DNA of 64,000 nucleotides from the NCBI RefSeq assembly GCF_003675855.1, contig NZ_RCIH01000010.1:1-64000 (forward strand), written 5' to 3'. The first letter of the stretch is position 1, and every line of letters begins with the position of its first letter. The notes under the pieces were generated by a model, which was given only the letters and a program-made list of their open reading frames with translations, was not told the DNA's origin and ran no database searches. A program made the translations under genes and the position numbers. The DNA comes from Halostella salina (lineage in GTDB: Archaea > Halobacteriota > Halobacteria > Halobacteriales > Natronoarchaeaceae). Shown here piece after piece: positions 1 through 10,457 of this stretch.

Positions 1-239
1 ACGACGTTGACGACGCCGTGTTTCTCATCGATGGCTCACTCTCGCTGAAAGACGCCTGTTCACGACACGGCCTCGATTTCCGATACGAAAAACATGGAAA
101 TCGGAACAGTGTCGAACGTGTCTTTCGAGAAGTAAAACGACGAACATCTTCGTTTTCAAACTGTTTTAGCAATGCCGACGCAGACACAGCTGACGACTGG
201 CTCAAATCGTTCAGCTTCGCATGGAATCAGCTAATCTGA
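1..239 (+). mobile_element. IS6-family transposase, C-terminal fragment (cut by window edge)
   Basis: The reading frame is already open at the left edge and ends at TGA 237-239, so only about the last 78 residues are visible. The stretch NSVERVFREVKRR followed by a phenylalanine-rich segment matches the C-terminal part of the DDE catalytic domain of IS6/IS240-type (ISH14-like) transposases. The glutamate in NSVE is the expected third acidic residue, and the IDGS segment ahead of it is also typical. The right end of the element probably lies within a few tens of bases after the stop, around 240-265, but the inverted repeat cannot be confirmed without the left end. The element directly borders the ORB repeats of the first origin. 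Confidence 0.8.
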
Positions 240-297
240 ACACTACCGATGAGTGTAGGGAAGTTTCACAGAGGACCGCTAGCGCTAGCGACACTGC

Positions 298-3179: not shown

Positions 3180-4256
3180 ATGGAACTTGAGGGCTACTCC
3201 GACGAGTTCACGCGGCGCGACTGGGAAGCCGAGACCGACGACGGCCCGATCCGGTTTGCCATGATCGGCGTCGGCTGGTGGACACGGGACATGGCCATCC
3301 CGGCGGTACAGGAGTCGAAGTACTGCGAGACGACGACGCTGGTGAGCAGTTCGACCGAGAAGGCCGAGGACGCGGCCGAACTCGCCGACACGATCGAGCA
3401 CGGGATCACCTACGAGGAGTTCCACGACGGGAAAGCCAGCGACGCGTACGACGCCATCTACGTCGTCACGCCGAACGCGCTCCACCTGCAGTACGTCGAG
3501 ACCGCCGCCGAACTCGGCAAGGCGGTGCTGTGCGAGAAGCCGATGGAGGGCGACGTGGAGCGCGCCGAGCAACTGGTCGCCGCCTGCGACGAGGGCGACG
3601 TGCCGCTGATGATCGGCTACCGGATGCACACCGAGCCGGCGGTCCGCCGGATGAAGGAACTGATCGACGACGGGTTCATCGGCGACCCGGTGCAGGTCCA
3701 CGGTCACATGTCCCAGCAGCTGCTGGAGATGATCCCGGACCCCGACCAGTGGCGGCTGAACGACGACCTCTCGGGCGGCGCGACGGTGATGGACATCGGG
3801 CTCTACCCCCTCAACACGACGCGGTTCGTCCTCGACGCCGACCCGGAGCGCGTGCTGGCGTCGACGATCTCGACCGACGAGGCCTTTGCCGACGTGCCCG
3901 ACCAGTACGCCTCGTTCATCCTGGAGTTCCCGGACGACGTGCAGGCGGCCTGCACCGCCACGCAGAGCGGCTTCGAGACGGGCCACCTGCGCATCGTCGG
4001 CGAGCGCGGCGAACTGCTGCTCGAACCCGCGTTCTTCAACCGCGACGCCGCGTCGCTGACGCTCAAGCGCGGCGAGAGCGAGGCGTCGATCGAGTTCCCC
4101 GACGTGGACCAGATGGAGGAGGAGTTCGACTACTTCGCCAACCGCCTGCTCACCGACGGGGAGATCGAACCGGACGGGGAGCACGGGCTGGTCGACATGC
4201 GCGCGATGGACGCCATCTACGAGGCCGGCGAGACGGGGCGCGCCGTCGACCTGTAG
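3180..4256 (+). CDS. gfo6: D-xylose 1-dehydrogenase-like (Gfo/Idh/MocA family)
   Basis: 358 residues. The N-terminal Rossmann segment [13 protein letters not shown] binds NAD(P). The Gfo/Idh/MocA signature LCEKPMEGD carries the EKP lysine, and [12 protein letters not shown] lies in the substrate domain. The [13 protein letters not shown] segment and overall length match haloarchaeal Gfo6, the NADP-dependent D-xylose 1-dehydrogenase that starts oxidative xylose degradation. No other xylose-pathway gene is nearby, so the exact sugar is inferred from family resemblance. The ATG at 3180 is preferred over longer in-frame starts, which run into non-coding sequence. Confidence 0.8.
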
Positions 4257-4409
4257 CGTTGTGCTCGATCCGGGCGCGAGCTTCGGAACCCCACCACAGT
4301 TGCGAACCGGTTAGAATACACGGTTCCCAGAGATCACATGTTCTCACCGACATCGGTGACCGACTGACAGTGCCACAAACGATATGATAGTTCTTCACAA
4401 GGATGCGGT

Positions 4410-6344
4410 ATGGCTCCGGACCGTTTACGCCGACGCGACCTGCTTGCAGGCGTGACTGGGGCAGTCACTGCGATCTCGGGGTGTTCCAGCACCGACTCCG
4501 ACCAGCCGACGGAGACTGACACTGATTCCGCTCCGTCCACGGGAACTGCCACCGACGCCGACCCCTCCGAGACGACGGCGGAATCGGCCACGATCAGCCT
4601 CGATGCGACGATACAGAACGACAGCGTTCTCGTCGGCGAGACGGTCAGGGTCGGCGTCGTCGTCGAGAATCAGGGGACGGCGGCCAGCCAACGTACCCTC
4701 GTTCTCACGGAGGACGGCCTCGAGGCCGATACGGCGACCGTCACGGTGCAAGGCGGCGGCGAGGAGACGGCAACGCTGACGTTCGTCACACCGTCGGAGC
4801 CGGGCACGGTCTCGCTCGAACTCAACGGGGAACGTATCGGCGAGGTCACGGTCATCCACCGCACACGGCTCCACGTCGCTCCCGACGGTTCCGACGACGC
4901 CGTCGGAACCCCGGACGACCCGGTCAGAACGATCGGGAGGGCGCTCGAACGAGCACGCCCCGGTACCACGGTCCAACTCGCCCCCGGCGAGTACCGCGAA
5001 CTGCTGCGGACCCGACGGGACGGCGAGCCCGACGCCCCGATCACGGTTACCGGTCCGCCGGAGGCGGTCATCCGACCCCCGCTGGGCGTCTACAACGCGG
5101 TCCGGATCGACCACAACCACTTCCACCTCCGCGGCGTCACGATCAACGGGTTAGTCGATCCGGAGCGCAAGTACGAGGACTACCGCGTCTGGATCCCCTG
5201 GTGCGTGTCCATCACGCCCCTGAGACGACGTGACGAGGGCCTCGAATACCTCCGGGACATCGTCGTCGAGCCGTCGAGAATCGGCAACAGTGCCCAGGGA
5301 CTCATACAGGTCGAGCGTGTCCGGAACGCCTCGATCGGGAACTTCGAAGTCATCGGCCCCGCGGGGATGCAGTTCGATCCGCGGGTCGACAACCACGAGG
5401 TCGGCCACATCCGGGAGATCGTCTACGTCGGCAGCCCGGAGGTCCACCGCGGCGAGGACCACTACAAATACGAGACGCTGGACCGCAGCCGGGACATTCG
5501 TATCCACCACATCGACAACAGCGAGGGGTACGCACACAACGAACTCGTCGACGTGAAACTCGGGAGCAGCGACATCACCGTCGAGTACTGCACGGACCGG
5601 AACGCGGGACACAACTCCGAGGGCGTCGTGAACGCGGCTATCGACGTGAAGGGCAACGACTGTACGGTCCGCTGGAACGATATCGGGGAGTGTCCACTCC
5701 CCGTGAGCTTCGGCGCGTGGGCACCCTCGGAGGACGTCGACGGGGGCGACTGGAGTCGGAACAACGCGGTCTACGGGAACCACATTCACGACTTCATCGC
5801 GGGGCCGTTCCGCCTCCGGAACGAGGGTGACATCGGACCGGTCTCGTTCGATGACCAACGCACCCTCTGCGGAAACCGGATCGAACGCGGCGAGCTCGAC
5901 GTCGAACCGTGGATGGCTGACGCAAACGGGTTCGACGGGCTCGTCGACCGACGCGGGACCGACGAAGTGACCGTCGAGGTGGGGACTGGACCCGACGGAC
6001 GCGCACTCGACCCGGCTGCCGTTATCGTCGACCGGGGGACGACCATCACCTGGGACTGGGTCGACGGCAGCGGGAGCCATTACATCGTCGACCGCCTCCG
6101 TGTCGCTTCCGACCCCGAATCCGTCCCCGATCCGAGGCCCGCGCCGTACTCCGAGTCCAAGACGCTCGATCTGGTCGGAATGACGCGGTTTGCGTGCTAC
6201 GCACACCATCAGGAGGGGATGATCGGGGCCGTCGTCGTGGCCGACGACCCGGACCGGTATGCCTTCGCGCAGGCGGCCTGCGACGGGGACGTGCCCGACG
6301 GTGACGGTGTCGGGCACGCCGGTGGCGACGGTCGCTGGTCGTAA
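4410..6344 (+). CDS. Lipoprotein: beta-helix domain fused to halocyanin-like copper domain
   Basis: 644 residues. The N-terminus has a twin-arginine-like RRRDLL and the lipobox ISGC (Cys25), so a Tat-exported, lipid-anchored protein is expected. After a Thr/Ser/Asp-rich linker comes a CARDB-like beta-sandwich (about 50-145). Then a right-handed parallel beta-helix opens with the DUF1565-type motif LHVAPDGSDDAVGTPDDPVR. The last 120 residues resemble a blue-copper halocyanin domain: His557 in GSGSHYIV, then Cys596-x2-His599-x4-Met604, the full type-1 ligand set. The fusion suggests a surface polysaccharide-binding or lyase-like module with an electron-transfer centre. The substrate is unknown. 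Confidence 0.8.
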   Translation: MAPDRLRRRDLLAGVTGAVTAISGCSSTDSDQPTETDTDSAPSTGTATDADPSETTAESATISLDATIQNDSVLVGETVRVGVVVENQGTAASQRTLVLTEDGLEADTATVTVQGGGEETATLTFVTPSEPGTVSLELNGERIGEVTVIHRTRLHVAPDGSDDAVGTPDDPVRTIGRALERARPGTTVQLAPGEYRELLRTRRDGEPDAPITVTGPPEAVIRPPLGVYNAVRIDHNHFHLRGVTINGLVDPERKYEDYRVWIPWCVSITPLRRRDEGLEYLRDIVVEPSRIGNSAQGLIQVERVRNASIGNFEVIGPAGMQFDPRVDNHEVGHIREIVYVGSPEVHRGEDHYKYETLDRSRDIRIHHIDNSEGYAHNELVDVKLGSSDITVEYCTDRNAGHNSEGVVNAAIDVKGNDCTVRWNDIGECPLPVSFGAWAPSEDVDGGDWSRNNAVYGNHIHDFIAGPFRLRNEGDIGPVSFDDQRTLCGNRIERGELDVEPWMADANGFDGLVDRRGTDEVTVEVGTGPDGRALDPAAVIVDRGTTITWDWVDGSGSHYIVDRLRVASDPESVPDPRPAPYSESKTLDLVGMTRFACYAHHQEGMIGAVVVADDPDRYAFAQAACDGDVPDGDGVGHAGGDGRWS

Positions 6345-6476
6345 GCCCGCGCTCCGACACGTGCGAAACCAGGTGGTCCGGCCGAACGTCACCAGTCCTG
6401 CAACGACCGCCGGCAGCCGTCACATCGGGACGGGGCAACCCCTATCATCTTAGCATCGGGCCGCGAAAGGCCGGGT

Positions 6477-7229
6477 ATGCCACGCGACAACCCCCTCGAC
6501 GGCGACGTTGCCATCGTCACCGGCGCGAGTTCCGGCATCGGCGCGGCGACCGCACACGAACTGGCGGCCGACGGCGCGAACGTCGTACTGGCCGCACGGA
6601 GTGCGGACCGCATCACAGAACTCGCCGACTCGATCGAGGCCGACCACGGCGTCCGTGCGGAGGCGGTACCGACCGACGTGACCGACGAGGACGCCGTCGA
6701 CGCGCTCGTGGAGACGACCGTCGAGACGTTCGGCCGCCTCGACGCGGTCGTGGCGAACGCGGGCGTCGGTCGCTCCGGGTCGGTCGAGGGGATGGCGACC
6801 GAGACGTACCGGACGATGCTCGGCGTCAACGTCGACGGCGCGTTCTTCACCGCCCGCGCGGCGCTGCCCCACCTCCGGGAGACCGAGGGAACGCTCGTGT
6901 TCCTCGGCAGTTTCGCGGGGCAGTACCCCCGTCCCGGTAATCCCGTGTACGCCGCGACGAAGTGGTGGGTCCGAGGGTTCGCGCTCAGCCTCGCGGGGAG
7001 CGTCGGCGGCGACGGTGTCGGCGTCAGCGTCGTCAACCCGACCGAGGTGCGAACGGGGTTCCTCTCCGAGGACGAGGACGCCGAGGGGTTCGACGAGCGC
7101 TTCGCCCCCGGCGAGGTGACCGAGCCGTCGGAGGTGGCTGCCGCGATCGCGTTCGCCGTCCGGCAGGAGTCGCCAACTGCGACGACGGAGATCGACCTGT
7201 TCCGGCGGGACAAGTTCGAGCACTTCTGA
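6477..7229 (+). CDS. Short-chain dehydrogenase/reductase
   Basis: 250 residues of a classical SDR. The N-terminal nucleotide motif VTGASSGIGAA is followed by the NAG segment VVANAGVG. The catalytic region reads FLGSFAGQYPRPGNPVYAATKWW, giving Ser, Tyr and Lys in the order expected. The substrate cannot be predicted. It ends just before the second origin region. The start at 6477 gives the standard N-terminus. Confidence 0.9.
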   Translation: MPRDNPLDGDVAIVTGASSGIGAATAHELAADGANVVLAARSADRITELADSIEADHGVRAEAVPTDVTDEDAVDALVETTVETFGRLDAVVANAGVGRSGSVEGMATETYRTMLGVNVDGAFFTARAALPHLRETEGTLVFLGSFAGQYPRPGNPVYAATKWWVRGFALSLAGSVGGDGVGVSVVNPTEVRTGFLSEDEDAEGFDERFAPGEVTEPSEVAAAIAFAVRQESPTATTEIDLFRRDKFEHF

Positions 7230-7320
7230 CTGGGTTACTCAACTTTAACCAATCCAAAACCTCGATCGAACACGTTGTCCTCTCCATTGAGACTGTTGAA
7301 CCGTGGACAGGGCGAACGCC

Positions 7321-7842
7321 CCCACCCCACGTTTCCGCTGTAGATCGGTAAGGGTCTGACCCTCTTCGTGGCCCTTTCAGGTGGAACTCTTGGTGGCAAG
7401 GATGGACGAAGATACGGTGAGCTGGTCGCTCGAAGCTGCGCTTCTCGCTTTCTACTAACACGAAGAAGTGCAGTACGGAAACGTTCATAAGATAGGTATA
7501 AAAAGTTATCTATAGAATCAGGATAAGAACCTTCCATGTCCATCAGTAGCCAGTCGGTATCGTTCATCTACAGCGGAAATACGGGGTGGCCGGGACAGAG
7601 TTACCGATGTAAATAGACTGTACTGAATAATATCGGCATATTTACAGCGGAAACCTGGTCCATCCGGTGACGGTGAACGAGAAACTTGATGCCGATGATC
7701 GGGAAAATCGTTTGGCCGTGGACTTGGATGAGTGGTGTCATCTACAGCGGAAACAAGGTTGTTACATAAGATGTATTTCATTACGGTGGTATGCTCTCAA
7801 ACGACTATTTCGAACCTATTTACAGCGGAAACGTGGGGTGGG
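7321..7842. repeat. ORB-like repeat array, set 2 (second candidate origin)
   Basis: Five copies of a repeat distinct from set 1 lie between the SDR and the second orc gene. An inverted copy sits at 7321-7345, and direct copies at 7568-7589, 7640-7659, 7740-7759 and 7819-7842. The core is TACAGCGGAAACGTGGGGTG. The two outermost copies share an identical 22-bp core in opposite orientation and bracket about 475 bp. Inside is AT-rich DNA, notably 7485-7530 (ATAAGATAGGTATAAAAAGT), a good candidate unwinding element. No convincing gene occupies 7230-7885. The G-string and the neighbouring orc gene match known haloarchaeal origins. Confidence 0.88.
7485..7530. other. Candidate duplex-unwinding element of second origin
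   Basis: The stretch around TAGGTATAAAAAGTTATCT is the most AT-rich part of the second origin and lies between the inverted ORB and the first direct ORB. Archaeal origins typically place such DNA between inverted ORBs. The assignment rests on composition and position only. Confidence 0.5.
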
Positions 7843-7852
7843 TGTGGCCTTC

Positions 7853-7861
7853 ATCTTTATA
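7853..7861 (+). promoter_or_regulatory. TATA box of second orc gene
   Basis: CTTTATATT lies about 25-30 bases ahead of the ATG at 7886, right for a leaderless transcript. It begins only about 10 bases after the last ORB copy (7819-7842). Initiator binding there would be expected to affect the gene's own expression. Confidence 0.6.
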
Positions 7862-7885
7862 TTCCATCGTTCCAATCCTCCGAAT

Positions 7886-9193
7886 ATGGACGATTCGCAG
7901 ATCGACTCGTACGACGACGCCGACGACCAGAAGTCGGCACTAGCCGCGGCTGCTTCGGAGCTGTTTCCGGACGAGCATCCGATCTTTGCCGATAAACAAC
8001 TCCTCCAGATCGGCCACATCCCGGATGGCGACCGGATCGTCGGGCGGGACAGTGAGATACGGTCACTTGCCGATCAACTCGTTGACGCAACCGACGGCAA
8101 CTCTCCGGAGAACGTTATCATCTACGGCAAGCCCGGCACCGGCAAGTCACTCGTCTCGAAGTACGTTACGCAGTTGACCGAGGTCAAAGCTCGGACGAGC
8201 GGGCACGACGTGGCGACTGCCTACATCGAGTGCAACGAGGACAATACCGAAACCCAGGCCGTTGCAACGATCGGTCAGACACTCAATCGCGAGGGGTCAA
8301 GTGTGACCGTACCGGATACCGGGCTGTCGACGAGCCGGTACTACAAGCGCCTGTGGGACCTGCTTGACGCCGAGTACGAGACAGTCATCGTGATCCTTGA
8401 CGAAGTCGACCTACTGGAGGACGACAGTGTCCTCATGGAACTGTCCCGCGCGGAGGAAGCCGAGAAGACGACCTGCAACATCGGGATCATCGCCATCTCG
8501 AATAAGACGAAGTTCGTGGAAAATCTCGGGCAGCGGACGACCTCGAGTTTGCAGGAGACTGAACTGTTCTTCCCCCCGTACGACGCCGAGCAGCTGCAGG
8601 CGATCCTGCGGAACCGAACTGATGCGTTCCGTGAGGGCGTGCTATCTGACGGCGTGGTTGAACTCTGTGCCGCGCTGGCCGCCCGGGAACACGGCGACGC
8701 CCGGAAGGCCCTGGATATACTTCGGAACGCCGGAAAGATCGCCTACGAGGAAGGTGATGATCGTGTAACCGAGGCTCATGTCCGTAACGCCCAGGAACGC
8801 GCCGAAATCGACCGATTTCGAGAGATGATCGCCGACTCGACGGTCCAGAGCCAGGCCGTCATCCTGTCGTTGGCGCTACTAACGCAGCACGGCGATGGTG
8901 ACGTCTTCACGTCCGGCGATATCTATCCAGTATACGAGTTCGTATGTGAGCAATGTGATCTTGACTCCCTAACCGAACGCCGGATCCGGGACCTCCTCAA
9001 GGAACAGGATTTCCTCGATATCATCCAGTCGACGAAGCGCTCGCGGGGCCACGCTCGCGGGATCGGACGCGAGCATCGGCTGATCGACGATGCCACGATC
9101 GTCCGCGAAACGATCCTGTCCGAGCCCCGGTTCAGCGACCTGTTCGAAAGCGTGTCGGAATCGCAGTTCGCGACCGCGATCGCTCGATCCTGA
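7886..9193 (+). CDS. orc1: Orc1/Cdc6 family replication initiator (second)
   Basis: About 435 residues. Walker A GKPGTGKS at 81-88, Walker B VILDE near 169-173, sensor 1 AISNK, sensor 2 HGDARKALD, and a C-terminal winged helix ending in an acidic tail. The N-terminal segment IVGRDSEIRSL is the usual entry to the AAA+ domain. The ATG at 7886 follows the TATA box at leaderless distance; longer frames run back through the ORB repeats and are rejected. Sequence and repeat set differ from the first Orc, so this is a separate initiator rather than a recent duplicate. Confidence 0.93.
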   Translation: MDDSQIDSYDDADDQKSALAAAASELFPDEHPIFADKQLLQIGHIPDGDRIVGRDSEIRSLADQLVDATDGNSPENVIIYGKPGTGKSLVSKYVTQLTEVKARTSGHDVATAYIECNEDNTETQAVATIGQTLNREGSSVTVPDTGLSTSRYYKRLWDLLDAEYETVIVILDEVDLLEDDSVLMELSRAEEAEKTTCNIGIIAISNKTKFVENLGQRTTSSLQETELFFPPYDAEQLQAILRNRTDAFREGVLSDGVVELCAALAAREHGDARKALDILRNAGKIAYEEGDDRVTEAHVRNAQERAEIDRFREMIADSTVQSQAVILSLALLTQHGDGDVFTSGDIYPVYEFVCEQCDLDSLTERRIRDLLKEQDFLDIIQSTKRSRGHARGIGREHRLIDDATIVRETILSEPRFSDLFESVSESQFATAIARS

Positions 9194-9272
9194 CGCTACC
9201 TCCCATGGCATCCGCTGATTAGCCGTGAAGTACCACTTCTGACCGTCCCCGGCCGGTCCCGTCACACCGACC

Positions 9273-10457
9273 TCACGTCCGGGCGCGCAACACCACCAGC
9301 ACCCCGACCAGCGCCGCCGCGAGCGCCGCCTCGGCGTACATCGCCGTCCGCATCGTCGCGGCGGACGCGACCGCGCCGATCGCCGCCGGGAAGACGAAGA
9401 ACCCGGCCTGCCCGGCGGTCATCGCGACGGCGTTGACCGGGCCGCTGTACTCCGGCACCCGGTCGGTCGCCCAGGCGAGCAGGGTGGGGAACATCCCGGA
9501 CACCAGTAGCCCGGCGCAGAACGTCGCCGCGAACAGCGGGACCTCGCCGTCGACGGCGACGACCGCGTACAGCACGGGCACCGACAGCGCCGCGCCGGCG
9601 GTCACGATCCGGAGGTAGCCGAACCGCTCCGCGACCGCCCCGAACCCGAGGCGGCCGGGGACGTACGCTGCGAGGTAGACCGACAGCAGGAGGTTCGCCC
9701 GCGACCGCGGGAGGAAGCCGTTCGCGTAGTACGGGAGCCAGGTGAAGATCCCGCCCTCGATGCCGACGACTAGCATCATCGCGGCGCTCAGGCCGAGCAT
9801 CGACGGTCTGCGCAGAAGTGCCCGCACGTCTGCAAGCGACAGCGACTGCTCGTTCTCGATCCCCTCCGGCGCGGGAAGCCGGGCGATGAAGCCGGCGACG
9901 ACGAGGAAGAGCCCGGCCATGACCGCGTACGCGATCCGCCAGTCGCCCCAGCCGAGGACGAGCGTGGCGAACAGCGGGCCGGCCGTCGCGCCGACGGCCC
10001 ACGCCATCGTCTGGAAGTTGAACACCCGCCCCCGGCTGGCCGGGTAGAGATGGCTGAGCACCGGCCGCCCGAGCGCGCGGAAGCCGCCGGTGGCGAACAT
10101 CCGGACGAACACGAACGCGAGCAGCAGGAGGAACGTCGGCGCGAAGCCGACGCCGACGAGGCAGACGCCCGCGGCGGCCAGCCCGAGCGCGACGAACCGC
10201 TGGACACGGAGGCGGCCGACGACCATCCCGACGCCGAACAGCGTCAGCACGTAGCCCAGCGCCGACACCGGGGCGATCAGCCCCAGCTGGGCCTCGGTGA
10301 GGTCGAACGCCGTCCCGAAGCTCGGCAGCATCGCGCCCCGGACCTGCAGGGAGAGCCCGACGAGCGCGGAGAACGCGAAGATGGCCACGGTCCACCGCCG
10401 TCGCTCCGCGGGTCCCCGCCGTTCGCCCGTGTGCTCCCGTCCCGTCGGCTCCGACAT
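9273..10457 (-). CDS. MFS transporter
   Basis: 394 residues with about twelve hydrophobic segments and short charged loops. The loop between the early helices carries GVGMVVGRLRVQRF, resembling the MFS G-x-x-x-D/G-R-x-G-R/K-R motif. The middle loop near residues 195-215 is hydrophilic, as in 6+6 transporters. The substrate is unknown; the family resembles bacterial permeases of the CynX/YbjJ type. It runs convergent to the second orc gene, 79 bases away, and nothing nearby indicates a pathway. Confidence 0.85.
   Translation of the reverse strand: MSEPTGREHTGERRGPAERRRWTVAIFAFSALVGLSLQVRGAMLPSFGTAFDLTEAQLGLIAPVSALGYVLTLFGVGMVVGRLRVQRFVALGLAAAGVCLVGVGFAPTFLLLLAFVFVRMFATGGFRALGRPVLSHLYPASRGRVFNFQTMAWAVGATAGPLFATLVLGWGDWRIAYAVMAGLFLVVAGFIARLPAPEGIENEQSLSLADVRALLRRPSMLGLSAAMMLVVGIEGGIFTWLPYYANGFLPRSRANLLLSVYLAAYVPGRLGFGAVAERFGYLRIVTAGAALSVPVLYAVVAVDGEVPLFAATFCAGLLVSGMFPTLLAWATDRVPEYSGPVNAVAMTAGQAGFFVFPAAIGAVASAATMRTAMYAEAALAAALVGVLVVLRART

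Follow-up and report, generated by a model that had tools for sequence, protein, structure and literature searches.

At archaeal origins of replication, Orc binds inverted ORBs, AT-rich DNA opens and MCM is loaded, and origin capture is the accepted explanation of how archaeal replicons acquired several origins. In haloarchaea, origins adjacent to orc/cdc6 genes have been defined, families of Orc have been delimited by a threshold of 80% identity, and the translocation of such origins has been argued for; two of the seven origins predicted in H. hispanica did not support autonomous replication (Wu et al., 2012; PMC3528665). Dormant haloarchaeal origins are also documented in a second report (PMC4595724), and the gain, loss and IS disruption of origins have been described in variable regions of Haloarcula (PMC4441112). 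The module described here lies in a window of 64,000 nucleotides from Halostella salina and is built around a gene that we call orc2. Its layout is ordinary and of a kind already known; less ordinary is its insertion, which is unusually clean. Judged from its sequence, the orc2 module is most probably a real Orc-dependent origin that was acquired recently as a cassette.

The window covers the beginning of contig C10 (113,342 bp), the first and last 2,482 bp of which are identical, and C10 is therefore read as a circular Halostella plasmid of 110,860 bp with a G+C content of 68.6%. Two related plasmids are available for comparison: G002:C5 is colinear with most of C10 at about 75-93% identity, and G001:C6 with large parts of it. 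C10 carries three intact orc genes in three orc/origin modules of three kinds. The third gene, orc3, lies beyond the window at 88178-89380; it shows 93% identity to the sole orc on G002:C5 and has its own inverted set of TTTTCACTCGG...GGGGTGTGTG boxes (TTTTCACTCGGTCTCTGGGGTGTGTG) around AT-rich DNA (C10:87400-89380), and its module (~87.4-88.2 kb) is the probable resident origin in this family of plasmids. An apparent stop codon inside orc3 was dismissed as the gene's own terminal stop. Neither orc1 (754-1938) nor orc2 has a close match on G001:C6 or G002:C5, and the only orthologue of orc1 is found in a third genome, G003 (79% identity). GC skew over C10 is weak (p about 0.02), reaches its extremes near 18 and 78 kb and does not turn at 7-8 kb, and cassette-free G002 shares this weak skew; skew was therefore discarded as a pointer to the active origin, being uninformative on the orc2 module.

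Several observations concern the remainder of this plasmid. Origin 1 is interrupted by an IS (697 bp) that runs from G000:C10:110403-110860 into window positions 1-255, with an 8-bp target duplication, GATGAGTG, at both ends (110403-110410 and 248-255) and a transposase that is IS6-like by eye. The IS lies between the inverted ORB of origin 1 (110276-110295) and its + strand ORBs (301 onward), beside the AT-rich part, and the counterpart of this origin in G003 is unbroken. In the intergenic region between a response regulator gene and a KaiC-like gene, where C10 carries origin 1, G003 has an AT-rich palindrome enclosed by two set-1-like ORBs of opposite orientation and no orc (G003:C4:91715-91848), and the G003 orthologue of orc1 is found about 5.5 kb from this pair. 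A tandem array of 27-bp direct repeats of the ACAGCGGAAACGGTGGCGTGTGGGGAG type, three exact and one variant, is located at G000:C10:95115-95207 between two convergent genes; it has the register of the set-1 ORBs, has no orc nearby, is missing from G002 and could be a titration site or the seed of an origin. The first 20 kb of C10 (0-20 kb) form a variable region, and window positions 4256-6460, which hold a NosD-like/halocyanin-domain gene (4410-6344), have no counterpart in those parts of G001 and G002 that align.

Five TACAGCGGAAA boxes lie within 7321-7842, upstream of orc2 (7886-9193), as the initial annotation had noticed. ORB 1, on the - strand at 7321-7342, is inverted and full-length with its G-string (TACAGCGGAAACGTGGGGTGGG; 20-bp box at 7323-7342), and ORB 5, on the + strand at 7821-7842 (20-bp box at 7821-7840), is identical to it over 22 bp. 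Between them on the + strand are ORB 2 at 7569-7590 (TACAGCGGAAATACGGGGTGGC; 20-bp box at 7569-7588) and two partial boxes without the G-string, ORB 3 at 7643-7662 (TACAGCGGAAACCTGG) and ORB 4 at 7743-7762 (TACAGCGGAAACAAGG). GGGGTGG is present in three of the five boxes, and the G-rich 3' half is missing from the two at 7643 and 7743. A stretch of 60 bp between ORB 1 and the + strand boxes (7474-7533) is 70% A+T on a plasmid of 69% G+C, in keeping with the AT-rich DNA first reported there, and is probably the unwinding element. The outer boxes form the perfect inverted 22-bp pair that had been described, at an inner distance of 478 bp rather than the 475 bp first given. When the region was shuffled 1,000 times (first order), exact inverted pairs reached 14 bp at most, and 5 copies of the decamer ACAGCGGAAA are present where 0.0004 would be expected; the five boxes and the inverted pair are far beyond chance. 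Over the 3.7-Mb genome the exact 20-mer is found at the ORB 1 and ORB 5 sites and nowhere else, and matches with up to three mismatches are limited to the box at 7569, one site upstream of the contig 3 Orc and one beside an Orc of contig 2. The boxes had also been said to differ in sequence from set 1, which is correct in part: set 1 boxes have one extra base ahead of GGTGTG and no GGGGTGGG tail, but ACAGCGGAA is common to both. The proposed layout of an archaeal origin, with inverted, G-string-bearing ORBs flanking an AT-rich core beside an intact orc1/cdc6 gene, is supported, although this predicted origin belongs to one of three modules on a circular plasmid and is not the second of two.

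The gene orc2 (7886-9193, + strand) is intact and encodes an Orc1/Cdc6 initiator of 435 aa (TIGR02928, E = 8e-128). The protein combines the length (>300 aa) and the AAA+ and winged-helix domains by which an Orc is recognized; its Walker A (GKPGTGKS) and Walker B (ILDEVD) motifs and its winged helix are all preserved, and its sequence aligns with 2qby_A over residues 33-420 and with 2v1u_A. ORB 5 ends 43 bp before the start codon, and just downstream of it inspection of the sequence revealed a TATA-like box on the + strand (7855-7862, TTTATATT), about 25-30 bp before the ATG. This box would set the start of orc2 transcription near the ATG, as in leaderless haloarchaeal mRNA, and because ORB 5 adjoins it on the upstream side, the arrangement suggests that orc2 may regulate itself.

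The origin and orc2 occupy a unit with sharp borders between two convergent genes, an intact SDR oxidoreductase gene (6477-7229, + strand) and an MFS transporter gene (9273-10457, - strand). In G002:C5 these two genes are direct neighbours, with no orc2 module between them, and the 10-bp sequence CACTTCTGAC is present once (G002:C5:48638-48647). In the window the same sequence stands, on the + strand, on both sides of 7231-9233: the left copy (7221-7230) comprises the last SDR codons plus one base, and the right copy is at 9234-9243. The chance that two junctions taken at random would have a run of at least 10 bases in common is 8.5e-5. The insert (7231-9243; 2,013 bp including origin 2, orc2 and the right-hand repeat) is foreign in composition, with a G+C content of 55.8% compared with 68.6% for the plasmid, and the GC3 of orc2 is 0.75, similar to orc1 (0.74), with 0.91 in orc3 and 0.90-0.96 in the SDR, MFS, Gfo6 and AKR genes. 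The insert contains one plausible gene, orc2; compared with a transposon or IS, it has the target-site duplication at a clean empty site (CACTTCTGAC, single in G002) and lacks both a transposase or integrase and terminal inverted repeats, its end-to-end inverted-repeat score being like that of shuffles (p = 0.33). Elsewhere in the genome, only ORB-sized matches to the cassette or its ends were found, and single-protein scans of viral contigs and of phage records returned no viral or phage source for its Orc.

Taken together, 7231-9243 can be read as a complete initiator-replicator cassette inserted as one unit, to which we assign a probability of about 0.78. The Orc1/Cdc6 encoded at 7886-9193 would bind the five ORBs at 7321-7842, most tightly at the two full-length inverted boxes, and this binding would bend and open the AT-rich core at about 7474-7533. 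The opened core would then allow MCM loading and the departure of forks in both directions, and the ORB near the TATA-like box would probably let Orc control its own transcription. The 2,013-bp unit would have been inserted in one step, with duplication of 10 bp of target, into a plasmid already replicating from the ~87.4-88.2 kb origin.

The resident origin also opens another reading, in which replication proceeds from ~88 kb and the orc2 module is a dormant or defunct origin whose boxes are still bound but serve mainly as operators for orc2 or titrate its product. Support for it comes from the orc3-type Orc, whose counterpart on a sister plasmid with a single orc is 93% identical, from the unchanged skew at 7-8 kb, from the one full ORB at the orc2 promoter and from precedents in PMC3528665 and PMC4595724. 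We consider dormancy unlikely but a serious competitor: the Orc is intact, two perfect full-length inverted ORBs enclose an AT-rich core, and nothing is visibly broken, unlike the IS-split origin 1. It is highly improbable that the Orc from 7886 acts mainly at another locus, with the adjacent boxes as bystanders. Its nearest relatives in the Orc phylogeny do use other 5' half-sites (AGCATCGG, ACGACGG), but the exact full-length box is absent from the rest of the genome and the linkage of ORBs to orc was acquired as one unit.

The direction of the event can also be reversed, with an ancestral cassette lost in G001 and G002, in G002 through recombination between the 10-bp repeats. A deletion by way of short direct repeats would likewise leave a single copy, and both borders are defined by G002 alone, which is the only plasmid to keep the SDR-MFS pair close enough; in G001:C6, other genes (an ABC-transporter-like cluster) come after the SDR gene, and the cassette is missing there too. 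This history is nonetheless improbable. It requires two losses in place of one gain, as G001 is also without the cassette at the SDR 3' end; orc2 has a GC3 of 0.75 against 0.90-0.96 in its neighbours; and no orthologue above 58% identity was found in genus members or in 394 genomes of the class. Because of the empty site, the low G+C of the insert and the low GC3 of orc2, gain of the orc2 module in this lineage is preferred over loss in its sisters. A more general proposal, that haloarchaeal ori-orc pairs move as minimal precise cassettes, like the present one of 2,013 bp with no mobility gene, into the 3' ends of genes with short target duplication, is speculative and unlikely; if true, a replicon could acquire a whole additional origin at once, with no larger plasmid having to integrate. 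For the study of origin capture, cleanly matched states before and after the event, resolved to the base, are useful, and here an occupied and an empty site and resident, acquired and IS-split origins are all found within one 111-kb plasmid family. Therefore, origin takeover and dormancy can be tested by deletion in one organism.

Among 394 Halobacteria genomes, the box occurs with at most one mismatch in 22 (1 match for the reversed-pattern control), and most of the loci fetched hold several boxes and an orc gene. The comparison with haloarchaeal origins that the initial annotation had called for thus places similar boxes beside orc genes of other genera, and this ORB class is widespread. The orc2 Orc itself occurs in one species only and is at most 58% identical to anything found in genus members or the 394 genomes; its best relatives are chromosomal Halostella Orcs (56-58%), followed by plasmid Orc4 proteins (55%), and in the tree it is sister to the clades of both (100/98). 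Across about 50 loci the ORB consists of a common 3' half (GGAAACGTGGGGT or GGTGT) joined to a 5' half that differs by family, in one of the states TTCACC, AGCATC, ACGAC/ACGTC or TACAGC. The orc2 boxes carry the TACAGC half, yet orc2 falls outside the TACAGC clade; membership in the TACAGCGG clade, which would explain the shared ORB, was rejected by an AU test (p = 0.00013). By parsimony (4 states, 3 changes), convergence and the retention of an ancestral ACAGCGG box are equally simple. In loci L002-L134 a residue of the wing tracks the 5' half, with K/R for TACAGC, E for TTCACC and G for AGCATC/ACGAC; the motifs are G[KR][GA][KR]G in TACAGC and TAGAGC Orcs, GSAEG in TTCACC Orcs, G[LS]AGG in AGCATC/ACGAC Orcs and GHARG in orc2. 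This residue is a possible ORB specificity code, as a suggestive correlation in a small sample from which the more distant set-1 Orc departs.

Like the origins of PMC3528665, the orc2 module has an orc-adjacent intergenic region with inverted G-string ORBs and an AT-rich core, and here as there origins are found on a plasmid, with several different modules in one genome. Unlike the families defined there at 80% identity, the orc2 Orc is at most 58% identical to any found. It stands apart from the oriC1 family, the ancestral type of archaeal origin, being 34.5% identical to, and in another clade than, L008 (C2:240626-242014), which is likely this genome's oriC1-type Orc. Orc4 of Halobacterium salinarum and its plasmid relatives are among the closest named initiators (55%, in a sister clade, 100/98), and their ORBs have the same 3' half (GGAAACGTGGGGT) and register as the orc2 boxes; the identity and the 5' half, ACGACGG/ACGTCGG versus TACAGCGG, set orc2 outside the Orc4-type plasmid origins. 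The closest sequence is the chromosomal Halostella Orc (G000:C3:202106) with its genus orthologues (56-58%), which share the ORB 3' half, and their loci (L002, L020, L021) have a similar layout with one distant inverted ORB. Their ORB 5' half, however, is AGCATCGG, and this Orc is conserved genus-wide, whereas orc2 is found in one species only. The TACAGCGG-ORB origins of Natrialbaceae, Haloferacaceae and Haladaptatus (L049-L064, L070, L109-L123) match the orc2 module in ORB 5' half, register and architecture. Their Orcs have a basic residue at the corresponding position of the winged-helix wing (G[KR]G[KR]G, versus GHARG in orc2), but are only about 46-49% identical to orc2 over their length and form a clade of their own, an AU test having rejected a joint one (p = 0.00013). 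In Haloarcula, species-specific ori-orc modules lie in hypervariable regions and some are broken by transposases (PMC4441112), as an IS splits origin 1 here; unlike those cases, the minimal 2-kb orc2 module has borders known to the single base, a 10-bp direct repeat and an empty counterpart site.
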